Part shown: piece after piece, positions 21,586-33,009 of the stretch
How positions within the stretch are numbered: position 1 is the first letter of the stretch
How the letters are laid out: every line of letters begins with the position of its first letter
Source: a virus
Direction: 5' to 3' (one strand)
IMG/VR virus record: IMGVR_UViG_3300030117_007581
Location: 1-34,831 of that record
DNA length: 34,831 bases
Notes under the pieces: model-generated
Seen by the model: the letters and a program-made list of their open reading frames with translations, nothing else
What the model was told of the DNA's origin: nothing
Databases searched by the model: none
Translations under genes and position numbers: made by a program

Positions 21586-21604
21586 GTCAACAAGAATCGT
21601 TGAC
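21586..21604. promoter_or_regulatory. Perfect dyad GTCAAC-N7-GTTGAC
   Basis: Six-base perfect inverted arms lie around a 7-base spacer, the same spacer length as the preceding dyad and sharing a GTCAA core with it. It is probably an operator for the same regulator. Confidence 0.45.
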
Positions 21605-21670
21605 TGTCCATAGTTGGATAGTGTCCAGGTCTGGGCACAATAGATCTTGTTTAGTGTCCATGTCTGGACA
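21605..21670. promoter_or_regulatory. Three operator-like dyads TGTCCA-N4-TGGRYA
   Basis: Three copies of a 16-base site occur: TGTCCA TAGT TGGATA (21605-21620), TGTCCA GGTC TGGGCA (21622-21637) and TGTCCA TGTC TGGACA (21655-21670, a perfect dyad). The first two are 17 bases apart and the third 33 bases on, close to multiples of a helical turn and a half. A single dimeric regulator could bind all three cooperatively. No cognate regulator is recognisable among the genes. Confidence 0.6.
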
Positions 21671-21763
21671 TCCAGGGGATAATGCACATAATCAACAATT
21701 GTCCTGGTATCAATGACTTAGCGTTCCATTATTTTGTTGCATTGTTTCCATTATCTGGTAGTA

Positions 21764-21803: not shown

Positions 21804-21962
21804 ATGAGACTAGTAACTGAGACCATCGACCAAGCCTTAAAGAGAGGCGTAACGGTTGAGAGGCTTGAAACCAAGGGTAAGGCTAAAAGAACACCTAGGA
21901 CCGCCAAAAAAGCCAAAAGAAACAGGTTTATGAGCGTGTATCTAGACCAGGGGAGGAACTAA
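21804..21962 (+). CDS. Small basic early protein (52 residues)
   Basis: This is the first gene of the plus-strand arm, with AAGGA seven bases before the ATG. The N-terminal 25 residues (LVTETIDQALKRGVTVERL) form one amphipathic helix; the middle is very basic (KGKAKRTPRTAKKAKRNR), then FMSVYLDQGRN. The composition suggests nucleic acid binding, and its location beside operator-like dyads would suit an early regulator, but I do not recognise a family. It ends in a TAATG overlap with the next gene. Confidence 0.65.
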   Translation: MRLVTETIDQALKRGVTVERLETKGKAKRTPRTAKKAKRNRFMSVYLDQGRN

Positions 21963-22141: not shown

Positions 22142-22311
22142 GTTTAGCAATTGCCTTGATAAGTTTAATCGTAAGCTTCCAGATGTCAGTTTTCCTGGGA
22201 GCTTGCACCGGAGGCAAGGCAAAAGAGTTATGGGAGGAAGGCGAAAAGGAACACCTTAACGCCAAACTAAAAGAGCGTTTTTTGCAAGTGGAATATCGGC
22301 GCATCAAATGA
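22138..22311 (+). CDS. Small single-pass membrane protein (57 residues)
   Basis: A hydrophobic segment (LAIALISLIVSFQM followed by SVFLGAC) spans residues 3-23 and is followed by a charged cytoplasmic-type tail rich in Glu and Lys. The ATG overlaps the previous stop (ATGA). Early membrane peptides of this size are common in phages, sometimes altering host envelope or defence functions; nothing here shows which. It is the last gene before the repeat array. Confidence 0.6.
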   Translation: MSLAIALISLIVSFQMSVFLGACTGGKAKELWEEGEKEHLNAKLKERFLQVEYRRIK

Positions 22312-22686
22312 AGGTTGTACCACTGTTCCACTTATTTTCGGAAAAAAGTTTTTTTATATATATACTCTCTACTCTATGCGTTATTTTTACATATATTTTA
22401 TATTTTTATTTTTATTAAAAAAAAGTGGAACAGTGGAACACTTATGAAAAAACTTAATACTACTGGCGACTTAACGTGTACCACAATGAAAAGCAAAAGT
22501 GGTACAAAGTGGAACAAACTGGTACAAAAACAGAGCATTAAATACAAAGCATTAAACGCAATACATAAAAAAAACAAAATAACACCTAACAGCGTGTACC
22601 ACATAAGCCCAATTTGTACCACTTTGTACCACTTTGTACCACTTTGGAAAAATATGTGGAACACATTTAACATGGGAGGTCAGAGC
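22312..22686. repeat. Iteron-like array, probable replication origin or operator array
   Basis: This 375-base gene-free stretch holds 13 copies of TGTWCCAC or its complement GTGGWACA. Plus-sense copies start at 22316, 22324, 22477, 22595, 22615, 22625 and 22635; complement copies at 22425, 22433, 22499, 22509, 22519 (one mismatch) and 22656. Two groups of three are spaced exactly 10 bases, one helical turn, and two pairs abut at 8 bases. A pair in each orientation flanks an AT-rich core at 22332-22424 that could unwind. Iteron sets beside an AT-rich region are the classic design of initiator-dependent origins. The adjacent J-domain gene fits. A regulatory array is the alternative. Confidence 0.8.
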
Positions 22687-23190
22687 GTGAAAATGCAAGT
22701 GGCTTTGGGCGTTTTGGGGATCATAAATATCCCTGAAATTGACCTAAAAGAAGTCAAAAAAAATTACCGGATTAAATGTAAGGAATTCCATCCAGACATT
22801 AATCCAAACGGTGAAGAAATGATGAAGGCGATTAACGCAGCGTATGAGAGATTATTGGATTGTCGGTTTCCAATAATCATTAAAGAAGGTCAAGAGATCA
22901 AAACCGACTTCTCCAAAGTTTTGGAGGAGATCCTGGTCAAGATTAAGCACATTCCAGGTATCGAGATTGAAGTATGTGGGAGTTGGATTTGGGTAAGTGG
23001 GAACACTAAGCCCTACAAGGACCAATTAAAAGAGGCGGGGTTCAAGTGGGCATCTAAAAAGCAAAATTGGTTTTATGCAGCAAGTCCAGGTGGGACTAAG
23101 AAGGGTCGAGGTTGGTCCATGGGGAAAATCAGGGATATTTACGGATCCCAACAAGTGGAAAAAGAAGAACGAACCAAGATGGCAGCATGA
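22687..23190 (+). CDS. J-domain (DnaJ-like) protein with C-terminal KWA-type module
   Basis: I chose GTG at 22687 because GGAGGT lies six bases upstream; the frame continues further upstream but there it only translates the repeat array. The 167-residue product has a J domain in residues 4-57, with a helix before and after the HPD motif (FHPDINP, HPD at 35-37), which stimulates DnaK-type ATPases. The C-terminal part has IWVSGNTKPYKDQLKEAGFKWASKKQNWFY (residues about 101-130, described here by ends and length), a module seen with J domains in phage and plasmid proteins. There is no Gly/Phe or zinc region. It probably recruits host DnaK to a phage complex, plausibly at the neighbouring origin. 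It is followed by a strong terminator. Confidence 0.85.
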   Translation: MKMQVALGVLGIINIPEIDLKEVKKNYRIKCKEFHPDINPNGEEMMKAINAAYERLLDCRFPIIIKEGQEIKTDFSKVLEEILVKIKHIPGIEIEVCGSWIWVSGNTKPYKDQLKEAGFKWASKKQNWFYAASPGGTKKGRGWSMGKIRDIYGSQQVEKEERTKMAA

Positions 23191-25549: not shown

Positions 25550-27976
25550 ATGTCGGTTATCCAAATCGTAAAGCAACGACTGCTTGGAGAAGGAACTTCT
25601 CAAAATTGGATTTTGTGTAAACAGAAAGTTTCTAGCGTTCCAAAACTATTTGAAAATATAGACCGATTGTTGGAAACCTTCAATAGCGAAGACCAGTATA
25701 ATTTATTTTACACTGTGGCGCATATTAGGGGGGACGACTCGACTCGTACTTTAGTAAGTCAGGAGATCATTCCTTTTGATGTGGACGATGTTGATGAAAA
25801 TCAGATTGAAGACTGTATTTTGGTGGTCGAGAATGTCCTGGGAATCTCAAGAGAAGAGATGGGGATAATTTACAGTGGGAACGGCCTCCAGTTTTTAATA
25901 TTATTAGAAAATCCCATTGAGCATAAAGATTATTTTAATAAAAAAAGAGACATCTATAAAAAAATATGCGAGATAATCCAGGAAGAGTTTGAAGCAAAAA
26001 GAGTCAATGGGCACGTTGACCCAAGTGTGTTTTCTCATGCAAGGGTCATGCGTGTTCCGAACACTCGGAATATTAAGAAGGGAAAAGAGAAACAGGCCAG
26101 ACTTTTGTATAAGAAGTTTAAGCCTGTTAAAAATTTCCTGGAAGTAGAAGCTCCCACGGTTCTTCCTGAACCAAGTAAGCCAGTAGAATACATATACGAT
26201 AAAGCAGCAATCATTTCAGAGTGTGGTTTTTTAAGGTGGATGAAGGTTAACCAGAACCAACAATCTGAGCCGCAGTGGTACGCCATGCTCTCAGTTTTGG
26301 GAAGAGTTGATAGAGAGTTGGCGCATGAGTACAGCGTGGAATACGATGAGTACGACTATGACCAAACTGAAAAGAAGATTGACCAGGCATTGAAAAATGC
26401 AGGTCCTAGTACGTGCCATCATATTAATAGTATTTGGGAGGGGTGTAGTAAGTGTCCCCACTTCTCCAAAATAAAAAGCCCTATTACTTTAAGAGGACAT
26501 GACGTTCCCCAACTTAATGTGAAGTTAAGAGGGCAGCACCATGCTGTGAAAAGTGAAAAGAATAACGATGAGTACACCTATAGGTTTAGAACCCTTAAGG
26601 GTGGGTTTGGGAAAATAGATTATGAGACTTTGTATAACGAAATTAAGAAAAAACTGGGGAACTTACTCTTCCACGATGCTACGGGCAAGTTCCATACGTT
26701 CAATAAATTCAAGTTCTATTGGTCGGAACTAAGTGAGAACGCTTTAACTCAGTTCATCCACCAAAAAGTAGGGCCTTATGACAAGAGGGCAACGAAGAGT
26801 GAAAAAACTGAGTACGTAAGTTTTGTGAGTGACGAAGTTTTGGAGTTGGATCCGCAGTTTTTTAACAAACCTGGGGCTTTGAACTTTGAAAATGGGTACT
26901 TGGAAATGTGCCTTGAAACAGGCGAGGTTAATTTTATCACGCATGAAGATTACTACAAGACGCATGATGTGATGAAAGGACATGCCTTCACTTATCAATA
27001 TGATTTTGATTATGAAGCAGATGCCGAATGTTCTATGTGGAACAAGTTTTTAAAAGAAGTTTCCCTGGAAGATCCGCAGATGGTGGATCTTTTACAGGAA
27101 TATGTGGGGGCAGCTTTGTTAAGGATCCCCAATAATAAAGTAGCAAAAGCGTTAATCCTTCATGGGGAAGGTGCCAATGGTAAGAGTGTATTTTTGGAGA
27201 TGGTTGAGAGGATCCTCCACGAACAGAACACTTTTCCTTTTGGTCTCCAAGACTGTGAAGACTTACAAAAAAGAGGGAATCTAGTGGGGAAGTGTGCTTC
27301 GATTAAAGACGAGGCACCAAAAAGAGCACTACTGGAATCGGACAGTTTTAAAACATTAGTAACGGGAGGGACGATGGATTATAGGAATCTATACCAGAAT
27401 CCCAAGCGTTTTAATAACTCAGCTAAGTTTTTTATAGCATGTAACGACTTACCTTTTTCCCAGGATGTTTCCATTGGTCTTTTGAGAAGAATGTTAATCG
27501 TTCCTTTTGAACTTTATATTCCTGAGTACAAGCAGGATAAGTTCTTAAAGGAAAAGTTAGAGCTAGAGTTACCAGGCATAGTGAACTGGAGTGTGGAAGG
27601 AGCACAAAGGTTTATTAGGCAGAACTGGAGGTTCTCTCCTTTTAAAAGGGGAAGTGAAAAAGTATTAGAGTACAAATTAGAAACCAATATTATTTTTACA
27701 TATATTGATGAGCACATAGAGTTGGCAGAAGAAGGGTTTATTTCTTCTAAAGAGATTTGGTTGAGCTTTAAGGATCACTATGAGCAAGAAGCCCGTAGAT
27801 TTAATAGTCAAGTGTCCTTCATCCGCAAGCTTAAGCAGACTTTGGCACAGACTTACCCCGATAAAAAGTTCCCCACCAAAAGAGAAAGAGTTAAGGGAGC
27901 TAATCTTCGTGGTATAATGGGGATTAAGTTTAAAGACATGGAGGTTCAAGACTATGCAGCAAGTACTATCTTTTGA
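25550..27976 (+). CDS. Primase (AEP-type) fused to SF3 / D5-type helicase
   Basis: This 808-residue replication enzyme joins an archaeo-eukaryotic primase-like N-terminus to a superfamily 3 helicase. The primase has IIPFDVDD (D77, D79 as metal ligands), YSGNGLQFL where the usual His is Gln (Q114), and ARVMRVPNTRNIK (164-176). A Cys/His cluster, CHH...C..CPHF (289-305), and a helical linker follow. The helicase has Walker A GEGANGKS (539-546), Walker B CASIKDEAP (D587, E588), sensor FFIACNDLP (627-635) and LLRRMLIVPFE with the arginine finger region. It would open the origin and prime both strands. It replaces the T7-type gp4 primase-helicase here. AAGGAT lies upstream of the ATG. Confidence 0.9.
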   Translation: MSVIQIVKQRLLGEGTSQNWILCKQKVSSVPKLFENIDRLLETFNSEDQYNLFYTVAHIRGDDSTRTLVSQEIIPFDVDDVDENQIEDCILVVENVLGISREEMGIIYSGNGLQFLILLENPIEHKDYFNKKRDIYKKICEIIQEEFEAKRVNGHVDPSVFSHARVMRVPNTRNIKKGKEKQARLLYKKFKPVKNFLEVEAPTVLPEPSKPVEYIYDKAAIISECGFLRWMKVNQNQQSEPQWYAMLSVLGRVDRELAHEYSVEYDEYDYDQTEKKIDQALKNAGPSTCHHINSIWEGCSKCPHFSKIKSPITLRGHDVPQLNVKLRGQHHAVKSEKNNDEYTYRFRTLKGGFGKIDYETLYNEIKKKLGNLLFHDATGKFHTFNKFKFYWSELSENALTQFIHQKVGPYDKRATKSEKTEYVSFVSDEVLELDPQFFNKPGALNFENGYLEMCLETGEVNFITHEDYYKTHDVMKGHAFTYQYDFDYEADAECSMWNKFLKEVSLEDPQMVDLLQEYVGAALLRIPNNKVAKALILHGEGANGKSVFLEMVERILHEQNTFPFGLQDCEDLQKRGNLVGKCASIKDEAPKRALLESDSFKTLVTGGTMDYRNLYQNPKRFNNSAKFFIACNDLPFSQDVSIGLLRRMLIVPFELYIPEYKQDKFLKEKLELELPGIVNWSVEGAQRFIRQNWRFSPFKRGSEKVLEYKLETNIIFTYIDEHIELAEEGFISSKEIWLSFKDHYEQEARRFNSQVSFIRKLKQTLAQTYPDKKFPTKRERVKGANLRGIMGIKFKDMEVQDYAASTIF

Positions 27977-28160
27977 GAGAAAGGAACAGTTGTTACACCA
28001 TTTTGAAAAAAGAGCAGACGAACTATTTATGATACATAGCAGGTGGAAAAGAAGTAATGCAGATAAAGGTTATTTAAATATGATTAAAACTACGCATAAC
28101 TTAAACATAACTCTCCTTAGAATTTTTGGAGACGGTAAGGATAGGAGGAGCTTTTTATGA
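27954..28160 (+). CDS. Small basic helical protein (68 residues)
   Basis: The ATG lies inside the end of the primase-helicase gene (23-base overlap) with GGAGG nine bases upstream, and the stop overlaps the SNF2-helicase start (ATGA). The product is helical and basic (SFERKEQLLHHFEKRADELF, HSRWKRSNADKGYL). Coupling to two replication genes suggests a role there, but no motif is recognised. Confidence 0.6.
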   Translation: MQQVLSFERKEQLLHHFEKRADELFMIHSRWKRSNADKGYLNMIKTTHNLNITLLRIFGDGKDRRSFL

Positions 28161-29590
28161 GGTTTAAGGTAAAACCTTACGCCCACCAATTAGAGGCCTT
28201 GGAGGCCAGTAAGATTCATGATGATTATGCGCTATTTTGGGAGATGGGAACAGGTAAAACAGGAGGGATGATTAACATCCTAAGAAATGTTTACACCCGC
28301 AAGAAAAGAATTTCACGAACACTCATCTTAGGACCATTAGCAGTTGTCCAGAACTGGAAGAGAGAATTTGAGATCCACTCTTGGATACCTCAGAAGCATA
28401 TCTATGCTTTAAATAAGTCAGGTCCTAGGAGAAACAAAGAGATTGCTAGAATCAGTGAACTAGATGAGGGGATATTAATTTTAAACTACCAGGCGTTGAC
28501 CAGGAAAGAAACAGTATCTCTTTTGTTAAAGTGGAAGCCTGAGGTTTTGGTTTGTGATGAGTCCCACATGCTTAAAAACCCTCAGAGTAAAACGTCTAAG
28601 ACGGTTTATAAACTCTCCCTTAGCTGTGCACATAGGTATATTTTAACAGGTACACCTATATTAAATAGCGAGTTGGACATCTTCCAACAATATAAGATCT
28701 TGGATGATGGGGATACTTTTGGACGGACATTTAATATGTTTAGATCCAACTACTTTATAAATGATAATGCATCCAATCCTCATGTTTCCTGGCCTAAATG
28801 GATCCCCAATCCTTACAAAGAGGTGCAAAAAGATATTAGTAGGCTGATGTACCGTAAGGCAAGCAGGGTCAGAAAAGAAGAATGTTTGGATCTTCCTCCG
28901 TATATTAAGCAGACTTACGAAGTGCAGATGTCTACTGTCCAGGCAAAAGCATATGAGGAAATGAAAAAGGATTACATAACGTGGATAGAATCCGTTAAGG
29001 AAAAAACTCCAGTCGTAGCGCAGTTAGCAGTCACTCGGCTGTTAAGGCTACAGCAGATTATAAGTGGCTTTGTAAAGACTGAGACTGGGCAGGAAGTTAA
29101 CTTTGATAAAAACCCACGGTTAGATGCACTAGAAGAATTATTAGAAGGTTTAATAAAACACGATAAAGTTATTATTTGGTGTAGTTTTAAAAATGATTAC
29201 AAAATTATAGAAAAGATGTTAAATAAACTCCAGAAAAAGGATTTATTTGGTTATGTATTTCTCACCGGAGATCAAAATGGATTCGAAAAACAACAGTCAA
29301 TCGACTGCTTTCAACAACACGCTCAATGCAAAGTTATCGTCGCTAACAGAGCATCTGGAGGAGTTGGTATCAACCTTACAGCGGCTAGATACAGCATCGT
29401 CTACTCAAGAGACTTCTCCCTCGCCAATGAGCTCCAAAGTGAAGCCCGAAACTATAGAGGAGGAAGTGAGATCCACTCTAATATAGTTAAAATAGACTTG
29501 GTTACTCCAGGTACAGTAGACGCTCAAGTGCTAGACGCTTTAAGTAATAAACAAAAAATTAGTGATGTAATTTTGGATATAAGACCATAA
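28157..29590 (+). CDS. SNF2-type superfamily 2 DNA helicase / translocase
   Basis: All seven SF2 landmarks are traceable in the 477-residue product: a Q-motif-like PYAHQLEAL, Walker A EMGTGKT (29-35), motif Ia LILGPLAVVQNW, motif II DESH (134-137), motif III LTGTPILN (163-170), motif V VANRASGGVGINLT and motif VI QSEARNYRGG. The fold and the DESH box put it in the SNF2 group, common in phage replication modules. It probably moves along double-stranded DNA to remodel forks or remove proteins. It is coupled to the upstream small gene by ATGA and to the next gene by TAATG. Confidence 0.92.
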   Translation: MRFKVKPYAHQLEALEASKIHDDYALFWEMGTGKTGGMINILRNVYTRKKRISRTLILGPLAVVQNWKREFEIHSWIPQKHIYALNKSGPRRNKEIARISELDEGILILNYQALTRKETVSLLLKWKPEVLVCDESHMLKNPQSKTSKTVYKLSLSCAHRYILTGTPILNSELDIFQQYKILDDGDTFGRTFNMFRSNYFINDNASNPHVSWPKWIPNPYKEVQKDISRLMYRKASRVRKEECLDLPPYIKQTYEVQMSTVQAKAYEEMKKDYITWIESVKEKTPVVAQLAVTRLLRLQQIISGFVKTETGQEVNFDKNPRLDALEELLEGLIKHDKVIIWCSFKNDYKIIEKMLNKLQKKDLFGYVFLTGDQNGFEKQQSIDCFQQHAQCKVIVANRASGGVGINLTAARYSIVYSRDFSLANELQSEARNYRGGSEIHSNIVKIDLVTPGTVDAQVLDALSNKQKISDVILDIRP

Positions 29591-31001: not shown

Positions 31002-31235
31002 ATGAAGGCAGCTAAAATTAAGAAAAAAATCCCTCCTTTTGTAGGGAGATATATTAATAAAAAATTGGACCCTGAAAAGGTAGTAACTCTCTACATACGA
31101 TCTTTTGACCGTAAGTTAAAAGACTGGGCACTTGCACATGCACATGCCCAACGCAAGACACTTGGAGAGTTTTTTATGGAGATCCTTAAAGAGTATAAAA
31201 AGGAAGCCTCCAAGCGTGATAGTAAACGAAAATAA
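31002..31235 (+). CDS. Small ribbon-helix-helix-like protein (77 residues)
   Basis: AAGGA lies five bases before the ATG. The segment VVTLYIRSFDRKLKDWALAHAHAQRKTLGEFFMEIL (residues about 27-62, here given by ends) has a strand followed by two helices in the spacing of a ribbon-helix-helix fold, and both ends are lysine-rich. A DNA-binding regulator or accessory is likely by fold. It is a candidate ligand for the operator-like dyads at 21.6 kb or the repeat array, though nothing links them directly. The end overlaps the polymerase start by 20 bases. Confidence 0.6.
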   Translation: MKAAKIKKKIPPFVGRYINKKLDPEKVVTLYIRSFDRKLKDWALAHAHAQRKTLGEFFMEILKEYKKEASKRDSKRK

Positions 31236-33009
31236 TTTTTTTGAAGTACTTGAATATCTAAAGCAGAAAGATGATTTATCTTTGGATACAGAGACTACTG
31301 GATTGCTTTTTGAAGATAGATTATTTAGCATCATAATATCCTGCTTTGGTTCTAACAAGGTACAGAATTACTACTTTAGTTTTAACGCTTCTCCCCTAGA
31401 GGGTGATTCTGTGCCTTGCCTTGATAAGAATCTATTGGCTTGTTTGGGAACACTTTTTGCGGATCCGTCTAAGGTCTGGTACATCCACAATGCTAATTTT
31501 GATTTGGTCATGCTGCTAAAGGAAGGTGTCTGTATAATGGGCACAGTCCATTGCACCCTAGGAACAGAGCGCATCATCCATAATAACCTTCCGTCTTATA
31601 GTTTAGCTAAATTGTGTAAGAAGTACCATCTTGGTGAGAAACTTGAGGATAAAGTAAAAAAATACATAACAAAACACAAGCTTTTCACCAAAATTGCCGT
31701 TCCTGGGAAGGCACGAGAACAACGAAAACCCCATTATGACCAGGTTCCTTTTGACATGATTAGTGAATACGGGATGCAGGACGGGGAACTTACTTTTATT
31801 TTGGGGAGGAAGCAACGCCAATTTATTAGGCGACCCGAAAATGAATTGCTAGTTAAGGTAGCTGCCAATGAGAGGAAACTCTCCCATGTATGTGCTGCTA
31901 TGTCGTATCTCGGCATTAAACTAGATACTGATTACACTCAGTCTATGTTTGACAAAGAATCCAAACTCTTGGATGATTTGAAGGCACAGTATAAAGACAG
32001 TTTGGCAGCTGACTTCTCTAGGTCCTCAAGGGACTTACTCCAAGTTTTTAGAAAGAATGGGTTAAAGGTTCCCCTCACATCCAGGGGGAACCCTTCCTTT
32101 AATTCTGAAGTTTTATCTGAGATTGATCACCCTTTACCTCGACTAATTTTAGATATTAGAAAACGGGAGAAGTTCCTGGGGACCTACTATTCCTCCTTCC
32201 TTTATTATAAAGACTCTAATGATCTTATCCATCCGTACATGCATCAAGCCGGAACTGAAACAGGAAGGTTTAGTTACTCCTCTCCAAACTTGCAAAATGT
32301 TCCTAAAAACTCTGTAGTCAGGAAGTGTTTTATTCCCAGGAATGACGACTATTTTTTGGTGGGAATAGATTATGATCAACAAGAATACCGAATCATGGCT
32401 GATAGAGCAGGAGAACATTCTCTCATAAAAATGGTTATGGAAGAAGGAGTTGATGTCCACACTGCTACTGCAAAAATGATGGGTGTGGACAGAGTAACCG
32501 CCAAAACAATTAACTTTATGCTTTTGTATGGGGGAGGGGCTAAGAAGTTAGCTGAAACTCTTAAAGTCTCCGTTCAAAAAGCCCAGTCACTTAAGAACTT
32601 GTATTTTTCCAGGCTTCCGGCCATTGGTAAGTTTATTAATAAAGTGAAAAGCACAGGACAAACCCATGGGTATGTTCATAATTTCCTCCATAGAAAGTTC
32701 TCTTGTACTAGGGATACTTCTTACAAGCTCCCTAACCATCTTATCCAAGGGTCAGGTGCAGATGTTATCAAGGTAGCTATGGTAAAGTTGTATGAGTACC
32801 TCCTACCTAAAAAAAGCAATATGATTCTTCAAGTACACGATGAACTGCTATTCGAGATCCACAAAAGAGAACTAGACATTATTGAAGATATAAAAGACAT
32901 TATGACTAATGTTTATCCAAGCAAAAACGGCATTAAACTTTCCGTTGAAGAGACGTACTATAAATCCTGGGGAGAACCACATGGCCAAGAAGCCAGAGAC
33001 ATTGTTTAA
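31216..33009 (+). CDS. Family A DNA polymerase with 3'-5' proofreading exonuclease
   Basis: The product has 597 residues from GTG 31216 (VIVNENNFFEVLEYL); earlier ATGs in frame give a tail translated from the overlapping gene. The exonuclease has LSLDTETTGL (D24, E26), HNANFDLV (D96) and YGMQD (Y185, D189). The polymerase has motif A GIDYDQQEYR (D385), motif B RVTAKTINFMLLYG (R426, K430, F434, Y438) and motif C QVHDELLF (H541, D542). The residue matching E. coli Phe762 is Phe, not the Tyr of T7 or the Leu of many temperate phages. There is no 5'-nuclease domain. It is the replicative polymerase. Confidence 0.93.
   Translation: MIVNENNFFEVLEYLKQKDDLSLDTETTGLLFEDRLFSIIISCFGSNKVQNYYFSFNASPLEGDSVPCLDKNLLACLGTLFADPSKVWYIHNANFDLVMLLKEGVCIMGTVHCTLGTERIIHNNLPSYSLAKLCKKYHLGEKLEDKVKKYITKHKLFTKIAVPGKAREQRKPHYDQVPFDMISEYGMQDGELTFILGRKQRQFIRRPENELLVKVAANERKLSHVCAAMSYLGIKLDTDYTQSMFDKESKLLDDLKAQYKDSLAADFSRSSRDLLQVFRKNGLKVPLTSRGNPSFNSEVLSEIDHPLPRLILDIRKREKFLGTYYSSFLYYKDSNDLIHPYMHQAGTETGRFSYSSPNLQNVPKNSVVRKCFIPRNDDYFLVGIDYDQQEYRIMADRAGEHSLIKMVMEEGVDVHTATAKMMGVDRVTAKTINFMLLYGGGAKKLAETLKVSVQKAQSLKNLYFSRLPAIGKFINKVKSTGQTHGYVHNFLHRKFSCTRDTSYKLPNHLIQGSGADVIKVAMVKLYEYLLPKKSNMILQVHDELLFEIHKRELDIIEDIKDIMTNVYPSKNGIKLSVEETYYKSWGEPHGQEARDIV

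Follow-up and report, generated by a model that had tools for sequence, protein, structure and literature searches.

The question raised by this locus is what a dense array of short repeats does in a noncoding gap in the genome of a marine-type podovirus. The window considered here is the whole stretch of DNA analysed, i.e., the IMG/VR virus record IMGVR_UViG_3300030117_007581 (34,831 bases, linear and perhaps incomplete), and the element in question is a cluster of 8-bp iterons at 22316–22663, spelled TGTTCCAC and sitting on both strands, which a sequence-only reading had proposed to be an initiator-dependent origin. This proposal is well supported by the association of such repeats with helicases and by the syntenic arrays found in related phages: with a probability of roughly 0.82, the array represents a replication origin of the P4/SaPI/PICI type, which would be read by the phage's own SF3 primase-helicase.

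The exact motif TGTWCCAC occurs 15 times in the whole record, as compared with ~1.68 expected and a maximum of 6 in 100 dinucleotide shuffles. Twelve of the 15 copies fall within 22316–22663 and, together with a copy carrying one mismatch at 22519, make up 13 iterons; only 3 exact copies lie elsewhere in the 34.8-kb record, the density being 34 per kb in the array and 0.09 per kb in the rest. The recount thus bears out the number of iterons given by the sequence-only reading, as well as the two orientations, the two triplets phased at exactly 10 bp, and the abutting pairs around an AT-rich core. The parts of the array are as follows:

22312–22686, no strand: noncoding presumed origin region of 375 bp, from a small open reading frame (stop at 22311) to the J-domain gene, containing the whole array
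22316–22331, plus strand: left iteron pair, two abutting TGTWCCAC (22316/22324), by motif count
22332–22424, no strand: AT-rich core of 93 bp, 86% A+T by base composition, presumed melting element, with 6/93 substitutions in the near-identical strain L617
22425–22440, minus strand: right iteron pair, two abutting TGTWCCAC (22425/22433), by motif count
22477–22526, both strands: iterons at 22477 (+), 22499 (−), 22509 (−) and 22519 (−, one mismatch), the last three forming a triplet phased at 10 bp
22595–22663, both strands: iterons at 22595 (+), 22615 (+), 22625 (+), 22635 (+) and 22656 (−), of which 22615/22625/22635 form a triplet phased at 10 bp

An open frame starting from 22315 crosses the array and is not conserved: at this place, the L617 sequence has gained one base and lost 10 bp. 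Since the frame is broken by these indels, the stretch was counted as noncoding. A search of Rfam gave no match, and no DnaA box was found at the array.

Which protein, then, would read the repeats? One indication comes from 160 viral loci chosen by their helicase only (80 with DUF927 and 80 with VapE), where a cluster was defined de novo as a stretch of 400 bp containing the same 7-mer at least 5 times, with both orientations represented. Such clusters are present in 125 of the 160 loci (70/80 DUF927 and 55/80 VapE); trimmed loci had them in 69 DUF927 and 55 VapE cases, with 0 in dinucleotide shuffles. Control loci, which had themselves been selected for repeats, contained clusters in 25/94 cases, and loci selected by the head–tail connector in 10/80, six of these being at the syntenic origin site. 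In 122/125 cases, the cluster follows the helicase gene on its downstream side, the median distance being 10 bp (DUF927) or 7 bp (VapE). Their spelling varies by clade (GTGGAAC, GTCCCAC, GCGGAAC, GTAACAC, TGTAACA, GGTTACA and others), and the exact octamer in at least 4 copies is rare in the helicase-selected loci (5/80 DUF927, 0/80 VapE). What the helicase class has in common is the plan, not the repeat sequence. About half of 17 annotated D5-type phage records have such clusters as well, several directly 3' of the helicase; the helicase is immediately followed by an array in Sfi19, LP-030-2, phiSP119-3, R18.1 and the satellite Javan601 (GGAACA x10).

In the DUF927 set, the iterons covary with the C-terminus of the helicase given its ATPase core (partial correlation 0.43, Mantel permutation p 0.001, with the relatedness of the loci only partly controlled); the partial correlation with the ATPase core given the C-terminus is −0.05. 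In the VapE set, the corresponding partial correlations (0.13 against 0.21) do not clearly favour either part of the helicase.

The octamer itself was also followed in viral contigs, where mixed orientation and at least 4 copies in 500 bp were required. Mixed orientation was demanded because a pattern of triple direct repeats, which was tried and rejected, yielded mostly coding repeats, in the control likewise. The scan returned 59 loci for TGTWCCAC and 0 for a control octamer matched in composition. A D5, VapE or DUF927 helicase was detectable in 35/59 of the octamer loci (in 33 at a distance of 1.5 kb or less) vs. 1/120 loci found with control patterns, and the arrays adjoin all three helicase types in unrelated viruses. 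As for the other 24 loci, several are truncated by the end of their contig or represent something different.

The syntenic site in relatives was expected by the sequence-only reading to hold the same array; repeats are indeed there, but their sequences differ. In phages with the same gene order, arrays of other repeats lie 3.1–3.5 kb from the connector, i.e., AAGTGT x10–11 (L622, L624, L627) and GTAACA x8–10 (L632, L634), all of them exceeding 200 shuffles and accompanied by an AT-rich stretch. The closer relatives keep the terS, terL, connector, SF3 and SNF2 genes.

A change of spelling is also seen in L617, whose connector and TerL are 100%, TerS 99%, and the J-domain and 21804 proteins 98% identical to those of the window. 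Its AT-rich core is the same apart from the substitutions given above; at the same time, position 4 is altered in 11/13 iterons, mostly giving TGTG[AC]CAC, and positions 2 and 3 are never altered. The motif spelling has thus been changed wholesale, and in a concerted manner, between near-identical phages. Because the L617 spacers (44/172) diverged as much as the iterons (26/104), it is the direction common to the changes, not their amount, that is telling. The J-domain, 21804 and TerS proteins are poor candidates for readers of the repeats, since they are 98–99% identical while the L617 iterons changed. Of the initiators proposed in the sequence-only reading, the 21804 protein is thus disfavoured, and the SF3 helicase is the one that fits. 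The genes relevant to the latter and to the surroundings of the array are:

22687–23190, plus strand: J-domain protein (Pfam DnaJ, E=8e-9) containing HPD, encoded next to the array, GTG start (ATG in L617), not needed for the arrays of relatives
25550–27976, plus strand: primase-helicase of 808 aa, proposed initiator, with a PrimPol-like N-terminus, D5_N + DUF5906 SF3 helicase and a winged-helix C-terminus (aa ~711–796), according to Pfam, TIGR01613 and predicted structure
28157–29590, plus strand: SNF2-family helicase (Pfam), shortly after the proposed initiator gene and a partner gene in relatives too
31132–33009, plus strand: family A DNA polymerase (Pfam), presumed replicative polymerase

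The primase-helicase matches TIGR01613 (phage/plasmid primase, P4 family) at 163.7 bits, above the curated cut-off of 108.7. Like the members of this family, it combines an SF3 ATPase with D5_N/DUF5906 (Pfam) and a primase domain, its N-terminus being similar to PrimPol domains (E 4e-4 to 2e-3). The closest solved structure is 7ola/7om0, probably the SaPI5 Rep. In the AlphaFold model, which is confident at both ends only, the predicted C-terminus is similar to the winged-helix DNA-binding domain of RFX (TMt 0.67–0.71). A single-protein search of viral contigs with this helicase found no relative. We infer that the primase-helicase would use its C-terminal winged helix to bind the 8-bp iterons, assemble on the two iteron sets flanking the 93-bp AT-rich core, melt the core, load itself and unwind outward; its N-terminal PrimPol domain may then prime, and the phage PolA would extend.

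How does this arrangement compare with known origins? In the SaPI and SCCmec Cch2 helicases, it is the C-terminal domain that binds the iterons, which are found directly downstream of the respective genes (PMC7581432), and PICI origins always feature two iteron sets on either side of an AT-rich region (PMC6092414). The window has the two sets flanking an AT-rich region and fits this plan except for position: in SaPI/PICI the origin directly follows the rep helicase gene on its 3' side, whereas that of the window would be 2.9 kb upstream; in addition, the window belongs to a phage, not an island. SaPI5-type Rep has the Primase_Cterm helicase in common with it. The putative SCCmec Cch2 origin resembles the arrangement proposed here in that its iterons are bound by the C-terminal domain of a Primase_Cterm helicase, but it comprises just three 5-nt iterons directly downstream of the gene.

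A similar position is seen in P4 with its alpha primase-helicase. Its annotated 8-bp type 1 repeats GGTGAACA (= TGTTCACC, vs. TGTTCCAC in the window) are spaced by 10–11 bp in ori, which lies ~2.3 kb upstream of alpha, and recur downstream of alpha in crr. Thus, P4 and the window share 8-bp repeats of related spelling in both orientations, 10–11 bp phasing, a place apart from and upstream of the initiator gene, and an initiator (in the window, the proposed one) with a primase and a P4-family helicase. They differ in that P4 possesses the second cluster, crr, and type 2 repeats, while the window has a single TGTWCCAC cluster and no second cis region with the same repeats within the perhaps incomplete record. 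Because the P4 ori is placed likewise, the unusual position of the array has a precedent; moreover, since the SNF2 gene follows closely (in the window and L618), there is little room for an origin 3' of the helicase. In Streptococcus thermophilus phage Sfi19, the noncoding region after orf508 harbours AGTAAC x11 in both orientations together with an AT-rich stretch, next to a D5-type helicase; its repeat sequence is different, and the array adjoins the helicase gene. In Proteus phage 2207-N35, a noncoding stretch close to terS (L607 6392–6687) contains TGAAACA x10, with 3.4 kb separating it from the P4-family primase of this phage; the spelling resembles that of parS half-sites.

Several observations weigh against the assignment of the array to the primase-helicase. 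The array precedes the helicase gene by 2.9 kb, and nearly all helicase-selected loci have it directly downstream. As the L617 contig stops short of the helicase gene, the C-terminal change predicted to match its iterons lies out of view. The quality of the AlphaFold model is poor in the helicase ATPase (mean pLDDT, i.e., predicted local distance difference test score, 55). The syntenic clusters are statistically weak in L618, L623 (TGGACA x5–6) and L625. The cumulative GC skew, which the sequence-only reading suggested as a check, does have its minimum nearby, at 21–22 kb; it falls where the genes switch strands and was dropped as independent evidence. Finally, the octamer is found in non-replication arrays too, e.g., as a parS half-site, next to integrases or in dispersed chromosomal repeats. 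Among bacterial genome contigs, 11/89 arrays are helicase-related, and the rest are mostly parS clusters, integrase-adjacent arrays and dispersed repeats; since these arrays mostly mark things other than helicases, the octamer alone is not diagnostic.

Two groups of such arrays deserve a description. In Bacteroidales elements (L270 251–503, L336 4988–5240 and L372 3059–3313), a tyrosine integrase (the Pfam match is shown for L270) is found at 44 bp from TGTACCAC arrays, which are probably integrase arm sites sharing the octamer. In Coriobacteriia loci (L325, L323, L366, L421 and others), the octamer is part of dispersed repeats GTGGTACAGAGGGACGGGG, present in many copies per genome.

Other explanations of the window array have to be weighed against an origin read by the primase-helicase. 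It could be an operator or silencer, whose octamers would be bound cooperatively by a small phage DNA-binding protein controlling the rightward operon. The array does stand ahead of the rightward early operon, its 8–10 bp phasing suits cooperative ribbon–helix–helix binding, and the 31002 protein (77 aa) resembles a ribbon–helix–helix protein by eye, though it has no family match. We consider this unlikely, given that the class-wide link is to helicases, with arrays usually downstream of them and not ahead of operons, that the AT-rich core is conserved between the two iteron sets, and that operator-like dyads are already present at 21602–21675. The sequence-only reading had rather stressed the next gene, correctly recognised as encoding a J-domain protein with an HPD motif, and hence an origin of the iteron-plasmid or lambda kind, with an initiator remodelled by DnaK and this protein. 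The gene is directly beside the array and is conserved in L617, but the tie is not supported: repeats occur at the site in L618, L623, L625 and L627 (statistically clear in L627, weaker in the other three), none of which has an HPD-bearing open reading frame in the searched region, and MW202738 has a related J gene in the same place without such an array. The J-domain protein stayed 98% identical while the L617 iterons changed, no Rep_3 or Phage_rep_O (lambda O-like) initiator was found among the scanned proteins, and the array lacks the DnaA boxes expected of a classical iteron plasmid origin. An origin of this kind is thus quite improbable, and the J-domain protein is most likely merely a neighbour of the array.

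A partition centromere would explain why TGTTCCAC is identical to the half-site of parS TGTTCCACGTGGAACA, parS-like clusters being also present among chromosomal arrays matching the same pattern. Still, the array has no palindromic pairing into the 16-bp parS, the sole parS-like site with 2 mismatches is elsewhere (27029), and no ParB family match was obtained among the scanned proteins; such a role is highly improbable. The same is true, to the point of being barely credible, of integrase arm-type sites: octamers of a similar kind do adjoin integrases in the three Bacteroidales elements, but the scanned window proteins include no integrase match.

A broader regularity may be tentatively considered, although we would not bet on it: tailed phages at large, beyond P4 and the PICIs, may use self-loading helicases (D5, VapE, DUF927), each of which would recognise, by its C-terminus, an iteron spelling of its own. 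This spelling would be replaced as a whole from one near-identical strain to another, perhaps because selection favours escape from satellites and co-infecting phages that compete for the origin. Were it true, the origin-to-initiator code would be predictable from sequence. The rapid turnover of iterons between close strains makes the co-evolution of initiator and origin directly testable. For specialists, the interest lies in this regularity and in the concerted respelling of iterons among closely related strains.

As regards the neighbouring genes, the J-domain protein has a conserved C-terminal domain and is related to proteins of Fusobacterium phages, Enterococcus phages and podovirus ctCJ8213. 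The 52-aa basic protein encoded at 21804–21962 shows a weak Tox-URI2 match just at the Pfam cut-off, the meaning of which is doubtful. Three dyads of 16–20 bp (21602–21675), e.g., GTGTCCAGGTCTGGGCAC and TGTCCATGTCTGGACA, lie in the divergent promoter gap that separates terS from the rightward genes; they are kept in L617, partly better paired there, and are likely repressor operators.

Beyond the closer relatives, the phage resembles HTVC010P-type pelagiphages in its head–tail connector (46–47% identical) and genome size (~35 kb). A comparable array was found in 0/4 of the HTVC010P-type genomes read, and 3/4 of them differ from the window in carrying an annotated DnaA_C-domain protein. In the pelagiphages L438, L439 and L440, which have a related connector, a DnaA_C-domain protein is encoded where the window phage has its primase-helicase, suggesting an exchange of initiation modules.
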